Shown: piece by piece, positions 11,191-50,095 of the stretch
Numbering within the stretch: position 1 is the first letter of the stretch
How the letters are laid out: the number at the start of each line of letters is the position of its first letter
DNA from: a virus
DNA: 64,000 bases
IMG/VR virus record: IMGVR_UViG_3300029998_000013
Span: 1 to 64,000 of that record
Reading direction: 5' to 3' (one strand)
Notes under the pieces: model-generated
What the model saw: the letters and a program-made list of their open reading frames with translations, nothing else
Database searches by the model: none
Told to the model about the DNA's origin: nothing
Program-made: the position numbers and the translations under genes

Positions 11191-11343
11191 ATGGGAATGG
11201 ATCAAGGCACTTATAGTGCAAAGACATGGGAACAGGTTGCTGAAAACTTGGAAACCAAGCCATCAGCTGAAACCGATCTTCCTATCGCAACAGCTGAAGC
11301 TGCTGCACCTGCTGAAGAAGTTGAGCCGACAGTTACTGAATAG
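11191..11343 (+). CDS. Small acidic Ala/Glu/Pro-rich protein
   Basis: A 50-codon gene starting MGMDQGTYSAKTWEQVAE and ending in an acidic Ala/Pro/Glu tail. It fits exactly between the vWA gene and the PurA-like gene, 5 bases before the latter. Its codon use matches its neighbours, which supports a real gene. No function can be assigned. Confidence 0.5.
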   Translation: MGMDQGTYSAKTWEQVAENLETKPSAETDLPIATAEAAAPAEEVEPTVTE

Positions 11344-14773: not shown

Positions 14774-15321
14774 AGGATCTACGGGGGTGTTTGGTTTTGA
14801 CAGCATTGAGTAGGGTAGCAGAACACACTAGGAGGAGTCCAAAATACTCAAAACAACAAACGACAACAGAAATGTTATCAACTTCGTACCACGTGCATCT
14901 GTACGTGCATACAACCAAATGGCTGCGTAACAAAACGAACGGAGTCGGTCTTAGACTTTGTTAAAGAAATTAAGACAGTAGTTCTCGGACTTAAACCGAG
15001 TGGTGGAAGATGGCGGAGAAATTCGTTCCCATGTTTTGTTAGTTTTCTCAAAACTAAACAGAGAAAGTACTGCAAAGACTAAGTGTGTATATTTTGTTAT
15101 TTTTCCTTTGTATGGACGGCGGTTTAAGATTTGGACCCCTTATGCAGTAATGTATATTGAAAATTGGATGAATTCAGGGAACACTAAACGAAGCAATTCG
15201 CATGTCAATCCTGAGCTAAGCAGAGAATACATTCTCTGAAAGTGCAACGACTACCTGAGAGATATAGTTCTCTTAATAACAGGAATAAGCGTCCGACATC
15301 CCTAAGGGATGATGATATAGT

Positions 15322-15888
15322 CTAATCTTCTAGGAAACTAGAAGTGAAAGTTGAGATTTGATTTAGAAACTCTTTAGTTTCTATATCTGACATCTCTTGT
15401 TTCATTAAGTTAATTGGAGTAGATACAAATTGTATGTTATCAATAATATAACCTTTGCTAGAGTCAATTCTATCTAAGGAAGCTCTTTGAGTTATATGAA
15501 TAATATTTAAATTGTTATCTTCCGGCAAAATTAAAGTAATTCCAGAATATGGACAAATGCCATTTTGTTTCTCCCAAACTTCTTTTAAAACATCTAAAGT
15601 AATATTAATTTCTTTGTCCCTCCTTTTAACACATCTTAAAGTATATCTAAAAGAACTGAATTCATCTCTTCTATTTGGACGTATTTTATCTAAGTGTTCT
15701 TTTTGAGAATCTGACAATGTTTTTGATGCTCTATGTGAATTATTATAAGAAGTTGCACAACTTCGTGAACAAAAACACTTTCTATCTAACTCTTTATTTC
15801 TTTTCAATTCAGACGCAGGTTTTTCTGCTTCTTTTCCACAGCAATCACAAATAAATGTTGCTGATTTTCTTCCATCATTTTGTTTCAT
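15322..15888 (-). CDS. HNH homing endonuclease, antisense inside the tmRNA intron
   Basis: 188 aa. A zinc-ribbon-like start (CDCCGKEAEKPAS, CFCSRSCATSY) precedes an HNH region with ICPYSGITL and RASLDRIDSSKGYIIDNIQFVS. Free-standing and intron HNH enzymes cut intron-less alleles to spread the intron. It is read opposite to the tmRNA and has its own -7 box (15914-15921) about 26 bases upstream of its ATG. Trp is written TGG here. Confidence 0.85.
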   Translation of the reverse strand: MKQNDGRKSATFICDCCGKEAEKPASELKRNKELDRKCFCSRSCATSYNNSHRASKTLSDSQKEHLDKIRPNRRDEFSSFRYTLRCVKRRDKEINITLDVLKEVWEKQNGICPYSGITLILPEDNNLNIIHITQRASLDRIDSSKGYIIDNIQFVSTPINLMKQEMSDIETKEFLNQISTFTSSFLED

Positions 15889-19949: not shown

Positions 19950-20576
19950 ATGAGTAAGTACAAAAAAGAAGAATTAGAAAAGTTAATTTTTGAAGATAAA
20001 TTACCATACGACACCATTGGAGAATTATATGGTGTTACTGGAGCCTCAATTCGTAAGGCAGCAAATAGATTAGGCATAGAATTACCTAAACGAAGAGAAA
20101 TTAATCCAACTGAAACCTTTAATAAGGGTGTACGTAAAGTTGGAGAAATATGTTGTGAAAATTGTGGACAACCACTAAAGTCACATCAATTAAGATTTTG
20201 TAGTAGGCAGTGTAAAGCAGATTTTGAATATACATCGTTTATTCTACGTTGGCAAAATGGACAGGAAGAAGGTCTTTCTGGAAAAGATGGAATATCTGGT
20301 TATATTGAAAAATATGTAAGAATAAAACATAATAATAAATGTCAAAAATGTGGCTGGAATGCTGTAAATGAAAGTTCAGGTAAAGTTCCATTACATATTC
20401 ATCATGTTGATGGAGATTCACATAATAATCAAGAAGACAATTTAGAACTATTATGTCCTAATTGTCATAGTTTAACCGATAATTATGGTAGTTTAAACAA
20501 AGAAAGTACAAGAACTTCTTTAAAAGAATTAAGAGAGGTGATTAAATCTCGTAACTTAGAAGAAGTAATTAAATAA
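19950..20576 (+). CDS. Free-standing HNH homing endonuclease
   Basis: 208 aa. An N-terminal helix-turn-helix (KLPYDTIGELYGVTGASIRK) precedes a zinc-finger-like CENCGQPLK...FCSRQC unit and an HNH domain (CQKCGWNAV, HIHHVDGDSHNNQEDNLELL, CPNCHSLTDNYG). It sits between tRNA-Glu and tRNA-Met with its own promoter box, a typical site for a mobile endonuclease. Trp is encoded by TGG, unlike three other endonucleases in this window. Confidence 0.9.
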   Translation: MSKYKKEELEKLIFEDKLPYDTIGELYGVTGASIRKAANRLGIELPKRREINPTETFNKGVRKVGEICCENCGQPLKSHQLRFCSRQCKADFEYTSFILRWQNGQEEGLSGKDGISGYIEKYVRIKHNNKCQKCGWNAVNESSGKVPLHIHHVDGDSHNNQEDNLELLCPNCHSLTDNYGSLNKESTRTSLKELREVIKSRNLEEVIK

Positions 20577-24196: not shown

Positions 24197-24270
24197 GGTC
24201 TTTTAGCTCAGTGGCCCAGAGCGACGGCTTCTAGTCCCGTGCGTCGTGGGTTCGAATCCCATAGAGACCA
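24197..24270 (+). tRNA. Suppressor-type tRNA(CUA) reading UAG
   Basis: A canonical cloverleaf: acceptor GGTCTTT/AGAGACC, D stem GCTC/GAGC, anticodon stem ACGGC/CCCGT with a C-C mismatch at 31-39, loop TTCTAGT giving anticodon CUA, variable GCGTC, T arm GTGGG-TTCGAAT-CCCAT, discriminator A. It would decode amber codons. Phages using UAG as Gln carry such tRNAs. The amino acid cannot be read here, and a normal tRNA-Gln(UUG) is also present. Confidence 0.85.
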
Positions 24271-24314
24271 CAAGGTTTTCGTCCCTCCTCCTTTCCACAA
24301 GTGAGGGACACTAT

Positions 24315-25325: not shown

Positions 25326-25408
25326 GCGTACTTAGTCAAGTGGCCGACGACGGTGGTCTCCAAAACCATTAGGGCAACCTCACGTGGGTTCGAATCCTAC
25401 AGTGCGTG
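25326..25408 (+). tRNA. tRNA-Trp(CCA) with a class II-type variable arm
   Basis: Acceptor GCGTACT/AGTGCGT, anticodon arm GTGGT-CTCCAAA-ACCAT giving CCA, T arm GTGGG-TTCGAAT-CCTAC, discriminator G. The variable region is about 14 bases with AGG/CCT pairing, as in Ser/Leu/Tyr tRNAs and not in normal tRNA-Trp. Confidence 0.75.
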
Positions 25409-25424
25409 CTTAAAGAATGAAAAG

Positions 25425-26952: not shown

Positions 26953-27025
26953 GGACTCTAAGCTAATCTGGTGAAAGCGTGTGCCTGAAGAGCACGAGAG
27001 TTCGGATCGAAACCGGAAGAGTCCA
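26953..27025 (+). tRNA. tRNA-Phe(GAA)
   Basis: Acceptor GGACTCT/AGAGTCC and anticodon arm TGTGC-CTGAAGA-GCACG. Confidence 0.9.
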
Positions 27026-27026
27026 C

Positions 27027-27497
27027 ATGCCAAGTTTAATAGACAAATTTAACGATGATGAATTTAGATTATTAGTAGCAGAAAGTATTTCTATTACTGA
27101 TATTGCTAAATCACTTGGGTACAAGTCTAAGGGAGGTGCTGTAACAGGTGTTATTAAAAAGAGAATAGATAAATTAAGCGTAAATACATCCCATTTCTCA
27201 AAATACTCTATAAAAAATACAGAGAATAGAAATAAACCTTTAGATGAAATATTAGTTGAAAATTCAACATATACTAACAATACATCACTAAAGAAAAGAT
27301 TGTTATCAGAAGGACTAAAAACATATGCATGTGAAGTTTGCAATATATCTACTTGGTTAAGTAAACCATTATCTTTACAATTAGACCCTATGAATGGAAT
27401 AAATACTGATAATAGGTTAGAAAATTTACGATTAATATGTCCTAATTGTCATTCACAAACAGAAACTTTTTCTGGTAGGAATGCATCACATAATTAA
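27027..27497 (+). CDS. HNH homing endonuclease
   Basis: 156 aa. An N-terminal recognition helix (SITDIAKSLGYKSKGGAVTG) precedes the HNH fold: CEVCNISTWL, LQLDPMNGINTDNRLENLRL, ICPNCHSQTETF. It starts one base after tRNA-Phe and is followed by a fragment of a tRNA 3' end, so it probably arrived with a flanking tRNA piece. Trp is TGG here. Confidence 0.85.
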   Translation: MPSLIDKFNDDEFRLLVAESISITDIAKSLGYKSKGGAVTGVIKKRIDKLSVNTSHFSKYSIKNTENRNKPLDEILVENSTYTNNTSLKKRLLSEGLKTYACEVCNISTWLSKPLSLQLDPMNGINTDNRLENLRLICPNCHSQTETFSGRNASHN

Positions 27498-27985: not shown

Positions 27986-28465
27986 ATGGCTTATAGCTAT
28001 CATGAAAGAACAATATCTAACTTAGGATATACTATAGATAAAGAAGGTAATTGTTATAATTCTAAGGGTAAGTTACTTAAAGGAACTATAGCTAATACTG
28101 GTTATCGTGTTGTTAGCACAACAATTGATGGCAAAACTATAAAGATAGGATTACATAGATTTCAAGCATATCAGAAATATAATGATGAAATCTATAAAGA
28201 AGAAAATGAGGTAAGACATTTAAACGGTATTAGAAATGATAATTCATGAGATAATATTGAAATAGGTACTCATTCAGATAACATATTAGATATTCCTCAA
28301 GATATCAGAATTAGGGTTGCAAAAAATGCGTCTACGAAGTATGATCAAAAATTAGTTGATGAAATAAAACATGATAAAGAATTAGGCCCTTCTTATAATC
28401 AAATTATGGTTAAATATAATATTAGTAGTAAAGGGACAATTAGTTATATTATTAATCAACGATAA
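27986..28465 (+). CDS. NUMOD/HNH homing endonuclease with an in-frame TGA
   Basis: 159 aa if TGA 28247-28249 is read as Trp. Upstream: LHRFQAYQKYNDEIYK and VRHLNGIRNDNS. Downstream in the same frame: DNIEIGTHSDNILDIP, then a C-terminal helix-turn-helix and TAA. In this family the motif is H.NG...DNR.W.NLE.GT, with Trp exactly where TGA stands. Without readthrough the HNH domain is cut and inactive. No TGG occurs in the gene. Confidence 0.75.
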
Positions 28466-31820: not shown

Positions 31821-31895
31821 GGTGTTTATAGTGTTAGCGGATAGCACGGAAGTTTGTGGAGCTTTTAGGTACAGTTCGAATCTGTATAGACACCC
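31821..31895 (+). tRNA. tRNA-His(GUG)
   Basis: Acceptor GGTGTTT/AGACACC, loop TTGTGGA, and C at the discriminator position as expected for His. Confidence 0.88.
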
Positions 31896-31911: not shown

Positions 31912-32526
31912 ATGGCATATATTTATTGTATTACAAATCAAATTAATCAAAAGAAATATGTAGGTAAATCTACTAGTTGTATTGAACAAAGATGAGCTGA
32001 GCATTGTAGAGATGCAAGAAAAGAAAGATGTGAGAAAAGACCTCTATATAATGCTATACAAAAATATGGAGTTGAAAGTTTTCAAATTGAACTATTAGGG
32101 AAATATTCTGAAATAGATTTAGATTTCTATGAAAATTATTGAATTTGTGAACTAGATACATATAAAAATGGTTATAATGCCACTTTAGGAGGAGACGGAG
32201 CTATATTATTTGATTATAAATTAATTGTAGATACTTATAATCAAACAAAATGTACTCGAAGGACTTCAGAAATAATTGGCTGCTGTCTTGATACTATAAG
32301 AAAAGTATTAACTTTATATAATATAAATTTTAATACTAAAGAAGTAGTTCAATTAAATGGAGAAATTATTATTAATTCATTTAAATCTATTACAGAAGCT
32401 TCTGAATGAATTTTTAATGAGGGCATATCTAAAGCTGCTTTAAGAAGCATATCTTCAAAAATTAGTGCAAATTGTAAAGGAAAAACAAAGTCAGCATTTA
32501 AAGATGAGTGAAGATATTTGGATTAA
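31912..32526 (+). CDS. GIY-YIG homing endonuclease with four in-frame TGA codons
   Basis: 204 aa if TGA is Trp. The nuclease domain begins MAYIYCITNQINQKKYVGKS, continues with IEQR-[TGA]-AEH and YENY-[TGA]-ICEL, then YKNGYNATLGGDGA. The C-terminal NUMOD-type part has TEASE-[TGA]-IF and KDE-[TGA]-RYLD before TAA. TGA lies at 31993, 32140, 32407 and 32509. All four positions are Trp in GIY-YIG/NUMOD relatives, and no TGG occurs in the gene. Under the standard code it is broken into pieces. Confidence 0.8.
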
Positions 32527-32688: not shown

Positions 32689-32762
32689 CGGGGATATAGT
32701 TCATCGGCTAGAACGTTTGACTGTTAATCAAAGAAGAGTGGTTCGATTCCATTTATCCCCGC
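32689..32762 (+). tRNA. tRNA-Asn(GUU)
   Basis: Acceptor CGGGGAT/ATCCCCG and anticodon arm TTTGA-CTGTTAA-TCAAA. Confidence 0.9.
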
Positions 32763-46606: not shown

Positions 46607-47257
46607 ATGAAACAAGGTTTAATCTATAAATACACTTCACCAAGTGGTAAAAGTTACATCGGGCAAACATCTGATGAAAATTGACGAATGAAGTGTCATA
46701 AAAGTTCAAATTGTAAGACTAAGTTTAATTCTGCCATTAAAAAGTATGGTTTTGAAAATTTTACATATGAAATTTTATTTAAAACTTCTTTTACCAAAGA
46801 TTTGGAAAAATTAAAAGATGTGCTTAATCAAATGGAAATTGCCTTTATTGAATATTATAATTCATTTAATAATGGTTATAATCTAACTAAAGGTAGGGAG
46901 GGTGCATTAGGAGTTAAGTTATCGCAAGACGCTTTGGAAAAGTGTAAGAATACTAGACGACTTAAAAATCCAACATGAGGTGATAAATTACTAGTCATTG
47001 ATGCTACTATAAAAAGAGAGGCAGCTAACATTAGACGCCAAGAGAAATTACGGCAGTTAGAAAAACGAAGACGACCTCGTATTTTACAATATGATTTAAA
47101 TTTTAACTTAATTACGAAATGACAAACTCTTTCTGATATTAACAAATGCTTAGGTCTTTGTGAAAATGGAATTAGAACTTGTTGTCGAGAAAAGAGACTT
47201 AATTATAAGAGTTATATTTGGAGATACGAAGAAAAAGAAAAGAATGAGAAACTATAA
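46607..47257 (+). CDS. GIY-YIG homing endonuclease with three in-frame TGA codons
   Basis: 216 aa if TGA is Trp. Start: GLIYKYTSPSGKSYIGQTSD, then EN-[TGA]-RMKCH, NNGYNLTKGREGALG, KNPT-[TGA]-GDK, and ITK-[TGA]-QTLSDINKC in a NUMOD-type region, ending YIWRYEEK with one ordinary TGG before TAA. TGA at 46682, 46976 and 47120. Each TGA replaces a Trp expected in this family. It overlaps the next gene by 14 bases. Confidence 0.78.
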
Positions 47258-47709: not shown

Positions 47710-50095
47710 ATGACACTTGACAGAACTGAGCGACAAAACTTAGGAGTTAAGCGTTGGATACAAGCTGGTTGTAGAGGAACTCTACAATGGTGTACAGGCG
47801 TTGGTATCATTAAAAATGATATAAATTAAATTAAGATAGTATCAGGATAAAAATCAATGTATGTCGTATATTTTAGATTTTATGTGCAATAAAAATATTA
47901 CCTTTGTGTAATATAATAAAAATATAAAATATGGGAAAAAGACACGAACAAAGAATTTATGATGAATTAGCTACTAAATATTTAGTAGAAGGATTTAGTT
48001 TGATAGAATTATCAAAACAATCAGGAATAGATAGAAGAACATTATCTACTAATTTTAAAAGTATGGGAATTAAAATAGTTAATAAACAAAATTTAACTAA
48101 ATTTGATGAACATATATTTGATGAAATAGATAATGAAGAAAAAGCATATTGGTTAGGATTTATTTTTGCAGATGGTTATATATCAAGTTCAAGTAATAAT
48201 TTTGAATTATCTCTTGGAATAAAAGATATAAATCATTTAGAAAAATTTTCACAATTTATGAAATATGTTGGACAAATAAAACAAGATTCTTATAGATGTA
48301 GATTTTCATTGAGAAATAAACATTTATGGAATATATTAAATAATTATGGTTGTACTCCTAAAAAATCATTAACTTTAAAATTTCCAAATATAAATATCTT
48401 TAAATCTGAGGATTTAATAAGACATTTTATAAGAGGATATTTTGACGGAGATGGTTGTATTACATATCAAAAAGATACTTATTTTGTAAGTGCTGTTTGT
48501 TCTGTAATTGGTACTCCTGAATTTTTAAGTAAATTTGAACAATTATTAAATTTTGAAAAAGAAATTACTAAGTGTAAAGATAAAAGACGAACTAATAATA
48601 CAATTAGTTTATCTTTTAAAAGATCCGAGTCATTAACATTAATGATGTACTTATATGAAAATTCTTCTATTTATCTAGAAAGAAAATTTAAATTATATTC
48701 ATTTTTTAAAAATGGATGCCGTTCATTAGAGGAATTTAGTGAATTATTATTGACCAATATCGGGGAAAGCTGTGATGCCAATCCCGAGATAAATGATTAG
48801 ATTACGAAAGGCTAATCATCATCGTAACGCGTAGGAGATGAATAAATATAATTCTCCCAAGAGTGGTTAACATCCAGAACGGATGAAAAGGTACGCTGGT
48901 CTTATACAAAATAGAAGTATAAGAAGTTAAGATAAAAAGCTTAACGATAACAAAAACGAAAACGCGTGCTGCATTAACAGCAATTAAAGGTTTTTTAGCA
49001 AAAAACCAAAACAAGATTATTAAGGTTGTTGTACCTACTGAGCATTTAAAAATTCAGTGGATGCAAGAGCTTTCCAAGTATGGATTACTTCAAGATGTTA
49101 GTGTCGAGATTATTAATTCAGCCATTAAAAATACAAATTCAATAGACTTTTTAGTCTTGGATGAGTGTCATAGAATTCCTTCTGATACTTTTTATGCTGT
49201 CTTTAATCAAAGACAACCTAAGATTGTATTAGGACTTTCAGCAACATTTAGTAGATTAGATGGTCGCCATGAATTACTTAACAGATTTTGCCCAGTATGT
49301 GATGTTATCCATATAGGTGAAGCAATTGAGAATGAATGGTTAGCCCCTTATAGAGAGTATAAAGTTATTATAGAGCCGGATGATATTGAAACTTATCGAG
49401 AGATAAACCGTCAATTTCATGAGGCTTTTGCTATCTTTAATTTTGACTTTAAGTTGGCTATGGATTGTGTAACTAATATCATATCACGAAGAGTGTATGG
49501 TAAAAAGTTAGGAATGGCTGTCTCTGATATGGATGGAGTAGTTTTTACTTGGAGTCGTTGTTTAAAAGCTCGAAAAGCTTATGTAATGAACCATCAGAAA
49601 AAAATTGATATTGCGAGAAGAATCATTGAGGCTAGACCCAATGAAAAGATTATTACTTTCTCTGCAACAATTGCCCAGTCTGAGAAGATAGGGAGTGGTT
49701 ATGTTGTGAATTCTGGAAAAACTAAAAAGAAAAACAGAATCACAATGCAAGAATTTGCAAAGTTAAATCGCGGTGTAATTCATACTGCAAAAAGTCTTGA
49801 TGAAGGGTCAGATGTACCTGGATTGAATACTGCAATAGTACTTTGTAATACATCTTCTCAAACTCAAAAGACACAACGAATTGGTCGTGTTATTAGATTT
49901 GAAAAGAATAAAAAAGCAGAAATTTTTACTCTTGTAATAAAGGGAACAATGGAGGAAGGATGGTTTAACACATCTACAGCAGGAAACAACTACATAGAGA
50001 TTACCGAGTCAGAATTAGATGAAGTACTATCTGGACATGTGTCAACTAACTTAGAACAAGAAGCTAAGGAGGTTGGAATAATGTTTAGATTCTAA
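47710..50095 (+). CDS. SF2 DNA helicase split by an intron in Walker A (exons 47710-47805 and 48959-50095)
   Basis: 410 aa after splicing. Exon 1 ends ...TLQWCTGVG and exon 2 starts KTRAALTAIKG, together making the Walker A motif TGVGKT. Later motifs: Ia VVVPTEHLKIQW, II VLDECHRI (DExH), III LGLSATFSR, V DEGSDVPGLNTAIV, VI QKTQRIGRVIRF. It is a DEAD/DEAH-box helicase of the UvsW/RecG-like SF2 group, likely in recombination or fork repair. Without splicing no functional ATPase can be made. Confidence 0.88.
47899..47906 (+). promoter_or_regulatory. Bacteroidota-type -7 box inside the intron
   Basis: TACCTTTG, 24 bases before the LAGLIDADG start codon. Confidence 0.5.
47931..48800 (+). CDS. LAGLIDADG homing endonuclease in the helicase intron
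   Basis: 289 aa. An N-terminal helix-turn-helix (LIELSKQSGIDRRTLSTNFK) precedes two LAGLIDADG-type helices: YWLGFIFADGYIS near residue 75 and FIRGYFDGDGCIT near 165. Two motifs indicate a single-chain enzyme. It spreads the intron by cutting intron-less alleles, here within the helicase P-loop codons. Trp is TGG. Confidence 0.9.
   Translation: MGKRHEQRIYDELATKYLVEGFSLIELSKQSGIDRRTLSTNFKSMGIKIVNKQNLTKFDEHIFDEIDNEEKAYWLGFIFADGYISSSSNNFELSLGIKDINHLEKFSQFMKYVGQIKQDSYRCRFSLRNKHLWNILNNYGCTPKKSLTLKFPNINIFKSEDLIRHFIRGYFDGDGCITYQKDTYFVSAVCSVIGTPEFLSKFEQLLNFEKEITKCKDKRRTNNTISLSFKRSESLTLMMYLYENSSIYLERKFKLYSFFKNGCRSLEEFSELLLTNIGESCDANPEIND

Follow-up and report, generated by a model that had tools for sequence, protein, structure and literature searches.

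The gene at 31912-32526 of the DNA analysed here (the window, 64,000 nucleotides of phage sequence) is an intact, full-length GIY-YIG homing endonuclease in which TGA stands for Trp. What is odd about it is not so much the TGA codons themselves as their setting, since this is a gene written in the late code of its phage within an early-code neighbourhood; two more endonucleases of the window (46607-47257 and 27986-28465) are alike in this respect, and late coding is common in endonucleases that have inserted between early genes. Our preferred reading, to which we give a probability of roughly 0.62, is that the gene encodes a working free-standing GIY-YIG enzyme of the sort found in tRNA arrays (SegB-like), and that the switch of UGA from stop to Trp would defer its translation to late infection.

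The endonuclease gene in the tRNA array

The frame starts with ATG, runs for 204 codons and ends with TAA. It contains four TGA codons and, over its whole length, no TGG, TAG, internal TAA or frameshift, exactly as the sequence-only reading had described it. The gene sits inside an array of 25 tRNA genes, between tRNA-His and tRNA-Asn, with the following features:

31822-31895, + strand: tRNA-His(gtg), 16 nt upstream of the endonuclease start at 31912
31912-32526, + strand: GIY-YIG homing endonuclease, 204 aa with TGA read as Trp; conserved Y5, Y16, R27, E74 and N89
31993-31995, + strand: in-frame TGA, codon 28, corresponding to the Trp of EKRW in I-TevI and adjoining catalytic Arg27
32140-32142, + strand: in-frame TGA, codon 77, corresponding to the Trp of ENFW in I-TevI, near catalytic Glu75
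32407-32409, + strand: in-frame TGA, codon 166, Trp in 4 of 5 aligned relatives
32509-32511, + strand: in-frame TGA, codon 200, Trp in both relatives aligned there
32690-32762, + strand: tRNA-Asn(gtt), the next tRNA gene downstream

The product matches the Pfam GIY-YIG family (8.4e-9, above the cut-off), the PHROG homing endonuclease family phrog_314 (1e-24, residues 1-203) and I-TevI, the latter both by sequence (9e-8) and by fold (Foldseek, 9e-6, with a predicted model that is good for residues 1-94 only). Beyond residue 95, where a separate C-terminal DNA-binding part would be expected, the model is poor, though the phrog_314 match covers this region. Residues Y5, Y16, R27, E74 and N89 are invariant across the alignment, and the two Trp of I-TevI are matched by TGA28 and TGA77, the latter lying three residues from the catalytic Glu. 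The product would presumably have nuclease activity and a target. The gene thus resembles I-TevI in its catalytic domain with the two Trp, and SegB in its location among tRNA genes.

Closest in sequence are the GIY-YIG genes of three phage records from the human gut (42-51% identity, full length), and in the nearest of these, MT837398, one of the copies has TGG at all four TGA columns. Together with the two Trp of I-TevI, this bears out the earlier proposal that the TGA codons stand at Trp sites. The expectation of Trp in each TGA column of the relatives held in part: Trp is the commonest residue of the wider relatives at column 28 (17 of 44 aligned residues) and at column 77 (13 of 42), but both columns also hold Phe, Tyr, Arg and others. 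Relatives spanning the tRNA array were sought by means of two flanking proteins and a DNA pattern; none was found, so that no empty site was seen.

The late code of the phage and its early block

The virus record of which the window covers the first 64 kb is 178,320 bp long and may be incomplete. By its crAss-type major capsid protein (Crass_capsid PF23898, 7.8e-12) and its terminase (phrog_6681, 3e-63, in addition to matches to crAss-like terminases), the record is assigned to a crAss-like phage (Crassvirales); a portal gene was found too. Most late genes are encoded on the reverse strand, between about 71 and 155 kb of the record, and the late block beyond 64 kb contains frames of 1559, 3053, 1466 and 4301 aa that exist only if TGA is a sense codon and are shattered under the standard code. 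Summed over the late-gene table, there are about 196 TGA to 58 TGG. In-frame TGA occurs in all 53 aligned relatives of the terminase; columns 68, 423 and 657 hold TGA or Trp in almost every one of them, the residues found otherwise at TGA columns being Trp and sometimes Phe or others. The terminase and portal columns of these 53 relatives support the placement of TGA at Trp sites of conserved late genes. Two tRNA genes are relevant here:

25326-25409, + strand: tRNA with CCA (Trp) anticodon, 84 nt, with a long class-II-like variable arm
161242-161337 of the record (outside the window), - strand: tRNA with UCA anticodon, 96 nt, upstream of the terminase at the head of the reverse late cluster

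A UCA tRNA lies upstream of the terminase in 9 of the 20 relatives scanned. Its anticodon loop, CTTCAAA, is invariant in the aligned copies and one base off the Trp loop CTCCAAA; the UCA and CCA tRNAs of this phage share the first three acceptor pairs, G73 and the anticodon-loop context, so that the acceptor end of the former resembles that of the latter. In several relatives the UCA tRNAs have an ordinary length of 73-75 nt, as against 96 nt here. Neither a Theta ribozyme nor any other known RNA was detected with Rfam beside the UCA tRNA. On the grounds of the late frames, the terminase columns and the UCA tRNA, the late genes of this phage are written with TGA for Trp; the UCA tRNA would be charged with Trp and insert it at UGA. 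The sequence-only reading had left the choice between TGA read as Trp and import from a code-4 genome. The former is well supported, whereas a recent import is not needed, because the phage's own late genes use TGA for Trp and it has a UCA-anticodon tRNA; we rejected a foreign code-4 origin as a necessary explanation, the record itself being TGA-recoded. There is also a tRNA with a CUA anticodon, an amber reader, at 24197-24271 of the window; the use of TAG as a sense codon that it suggests was looked for in this phage, and no convincing case was found.

Late-gene recoding of stop codons in such phages has already been published. The zeta crAss-like phages Lera (PV725988) and ct1yV3 are described as opal-recoded, and Lera has a genome of 179.6 kb with 26 tRNAs that include UCA and CUA suppressors (PMC12386605). 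According to the published layout and tRNA set, on which the likeness rests, Lera and ct1yV3 share with this phage a size of about 180 kb, a forward block with most of the tRNAs and the homing endonucleases, a reverse structural block, late genes with TGA for Trp, and both suppressor tRNAs; Lera, too, is reported to have a CUA tRNA with no convincing use of TAG (PMC12386605). An earlier survey mentions intron ORFs and a PolB gene with several TGA in one zeta genome (PMC7886860). The main texts of these two papers do not state that endonucleases are exceptions among standard-code early genes, nor do they compare TGA and TAG phages in this regard.

The window is the standard-code part of the record: its large genes lack TGA, and 12 of its 98 ORFs end in TGA. 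The recognisable genes of the window that need TGA to be Trp are all homing endonucleases, namely the one described above and the first two listed below; across these three the ratio of TGA to TGG is 8:1. The last three are counter-examples.

46607-47257, + strand: second GIY-YIG homing endonuclease, 216 aa, 3 TGA and 1 TGG
27986-28465, + strand: HNH_3/NUMOD4-type endonuclease, 159 aa, one TGA (28247-28249), inside the HNH motif (NDNS-W-DNIEIG)
19950-20576, + strand: HNH endonuclease, no TGA, 2 TGG
26979-27497, + strand: HNH endonuclease, no TGA, 1 TGG
47931-48800, + strand: LAGLIDADG endonuclease, no TGA, 2 TGG

The HNH frame at 26979-27497 has a GTG start inside tRNA-Phe (26953-27026), and ATG or later starts are possible. 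A Group I intron (Rfam, 98.5 bits) occupies 15115-15344, and its 3' end is overlapped by an endonuclease VII-like frame (15322-15888) that runs on the other strand. Further frames with TGA in the window (at 11226, 16288, 16989, 30820 and elsewhere) were dismissed as artefacts of ORF calling, their PHROG domains starting downstream of the TGA codons or being absent altogether. At the far end of the forward early block, a tail-lysozyme gene (record 70740-71426; L064:6740-7426) has three TGA and no TGG; a counterpart in the relative G010 (L165:18709-19416) is likewise a late-type gene on the early strand, written with TGA.

Endonucleases in the early blocks of TGA- and TAG-recoded phages

The comparison was extended to early blocks in four phages, this one and three relatives (together G000, G004, G005 and G010), "early" and "late" being assigned from gene order, strand and code. 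TGA splits 12 of the 17 recognised endonucleases as against 6 of the 273 other genes (odds ratio 107, p = 1.8e-13), figures to be read with the proviso that in the relatives the TGA-split genes were picked first and identified afterwards, several being recognised only after such picking, and that endonucleases were counted by the families searched, so that some may be missed among the 273. The six split genes of other kinds were left uncurated in the test and look like mis-starts or noise frames, or are small frames without a family match. The split genes of the relatives comprise two GIY-YIG genes, a phrog_559 gene of homing/HNH type, a GIY-like gene of homing type, three HNH genes and a PD-(D/E)XK endonuclease. 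Since five of the 17 early-block endonucleases, three of them in the window, have no splitting TGA, the late coding of such genes is a tendency and not a rule. The late blocks of the relatives also contain TGA-coded GIY-YIG genes. Two further loci are TGA-rich: a run of about eight small genes in G010 (L164:4812-9175, mirrored in L168 of G006), which includes HNH endonucleases and lies on the strand opposite to the late genes around it, and a glycosyl hydrolase family 16 gene of G004 (L178:74-889) with nine in-frame TGA.

The three gut phages that hold the closest sequences, MT837398, MT836666 and MT835492, read another stop codon, TAG, as sense (Gln); they were chosen for their likeness to the query and not for their TAG codons. 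Their GIY-YIG genes, like the window gene, immediately follow a tRNA gene on its 3' side, within an early block in the standard code, and they carry in-frame TAG, which their neighbours do not. They use TAG for Gln and TGG for Trp, in contrast to the window gene with its TGA for Trp. A LAGLIDADG gene in the TAG-coded gut records likewise carries in-frame TAG, and MT835492 has the same overall layout, with a forward block nearly free of TAG and a reverse late block full of it. In the tree, the window gene groups with four TAG-coded tRNA-block genes (83/86); the other early endonucleases with TGA fall elsewhere and do not cluster together. In comparable locations, members of one nuclease family are hence written in the late code of their own phage. 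A TAG-split early frame of MT835492 (L180:3047-3970), predicted to be a further endonuclease, was unrecognisable as one and looks like two adjacent genes, so that this prediction failed. In the tRNA block of MT837398, a 208-aa frame with five TAG (L061:763-1389) stands beside two GIY-YIG genes and has no family match.

A proposed translational delay and its alternatives

In the mechanism that we propose, the early standard-code transcript would carry the mobile element, which would be translated only late in infection. As long as the UCA tRNA is missing, ribosomes would stop after 27 residues, upstream of the catalytic Glu74 and Asn89; once this Trp-like tRNA, encoded at the head of the reverse late cluster, has accumulated and supplies the code switch, the full-length endonuclease would be made, at a time when replicated and co-infecting genomes would be present for cutting and conversion. 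The mechanism presupposes that suppression is absent early in infection and that the delay brings some benefit instead of being simply put up with. There is a precedent in T4, where endonucleases in early and middle transcripts remain untranslated until late, owing to hairpins at their ribosome-binding sites and to late promoters (PMC2988022), and where SegB, a GIY-YIG enzyme encoded by the tRNA genes, drives the inheritance and amplification of these genes (PMC13096335). By analogy with the T4 hairpins, translation of the endonuclease would wait for the suppressor tRNA; the T4 delay operates with RNA hairpins and promoters under the standard code, whereas here the delaying device would be the recoded stops.

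The four TGA codons could be explained in other ways. Under the standard code they are premature stops, as in a pseudogene, which is very improbable: there is no frameshift, TAA or TAG, every stop is a TGA at a Trp column, and the catalytic residues are kept. A frame with the base composition of this gene would avoid TAA and TAG over 204 codons with a probability of about 5e-8, and four nonsense changes would be exactly the four from TGG to TGA with a probability of about 1e-7 at equal rates or about 5e-5 with a tenfold transition bias, in agreement with the earlier argument that random decay would hardly hit Trp sites only. Moreover, third codon positions diverge from the nearest relatives more (0.50-0.58) than first and second positions (0.29-0.45), as expected of a gene under selection for its protein. 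The alignment and the probability calculations led us to reject both a pseudogene and a chance frame; the observations named beforehand as fatal to the Trp assignment, TGA columns that are not Trp in relatives or frameshifts elsewhere in the gene, were not made, in that the TGA columns hold Trp in I-TevI and in the closest relative and the frame is unbroken. Least probable of all is that TGA is a sense codon for some other residue, for instance selenocysteine or glycine. ARAGORN and Rfam do score the 96-nt UCA tRNA nearest to tRNA-Sec, below the Rfam cut-off, but the TGA columns of the terminase, the portal and the endonucleases hold TGA or Trp, or else aromatic residues, in relatives, and the anticodon loop and acceptor features of this tRNA match those of the phage's CCA tRNA. 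Selenocysteine was rejected on the strength of the endonuclease and terminase columns together with the Rfam check. Quite improbable, albeit less so, is a recent arrival, in which the gene would have been copied from a late block or from another phage with TGA for Trp and not yet rewritten. Homing endonucleases move, TGA-coded GIY-YIG genes are at hand in the late blocks of relatives, and the GC3 of the gene (0.083) is late-like (late genes 0.131+-0.040, early genes 0.252+-0.066). These GC3 values also count in favour of our preferred reading, with the caveat that low GC3 may be a trait of mobile genes, since a TGA-free endonuclease shares it (0.124). Against a recent arrival, the nearest known relatives are TAG-coded genes that also lie just 3' of tRNAs, and the family is therefore at home in tRNA blocks and recoded in place; furthermore, TGA recurs in unrelated early-block endonucleases.

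The main rival to a selected delay, which we consider unlikely, is that the TGA codons are tolerated and not timed. With a UGA-reading tRNA available, AT-biased mutation would turn TGG into TGA wherever the full-length protein is not needed early, without any regulatory benefit; dispensable homing endonucleases would drift in this way and essential early genes could not. Indeed, the phage is AT-rich, the 8:1 ratio of the three window endonucleases resembles that of the late genes, as mutation pressure alone would give, and the five early-block endonucleases without TGA also fit such drift. Tolerance alone does not account for the lack of TGA across the whole class of non-essential early hypothetical genes, although many of these may be needed early. 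It would equally imply late translation from the same sequences, and differs from the deferred translation that we favour only in whether the delay is selected.

According to the leading idea on why phages recode stop codons, recoding times the expression of late genes. Late genes are, however, also transcribed late, which confounds the timing of transcription with that of translation. Late-code genes in an early block separate the two, as they would be transcribed early and translated only after the suppressor tRNA has appeared; genes stranded in this manner would therefore be natural reporters for when the code switches. There is a practical consequence as well: under standard annotation, such endonucleases will be fragmented in early regions as they are elsewhere. 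Related phages, including some that recode another stop codon, share the habit, so that production of the endonuclease probably has to await the phage's own suppressor tRNA. Here a selfish element seems to take advantage of the code switch. We suggest, tentatively and at somewhat below even odds, that recoded stops may act to time the translation of selfish homing endonucleases in early transcripts, a device that would have evolved repeatedly, in two codes (UGA as Trp and UAG as Gln), and would play the role that hairpins at ribosome-binding sites play in T4.
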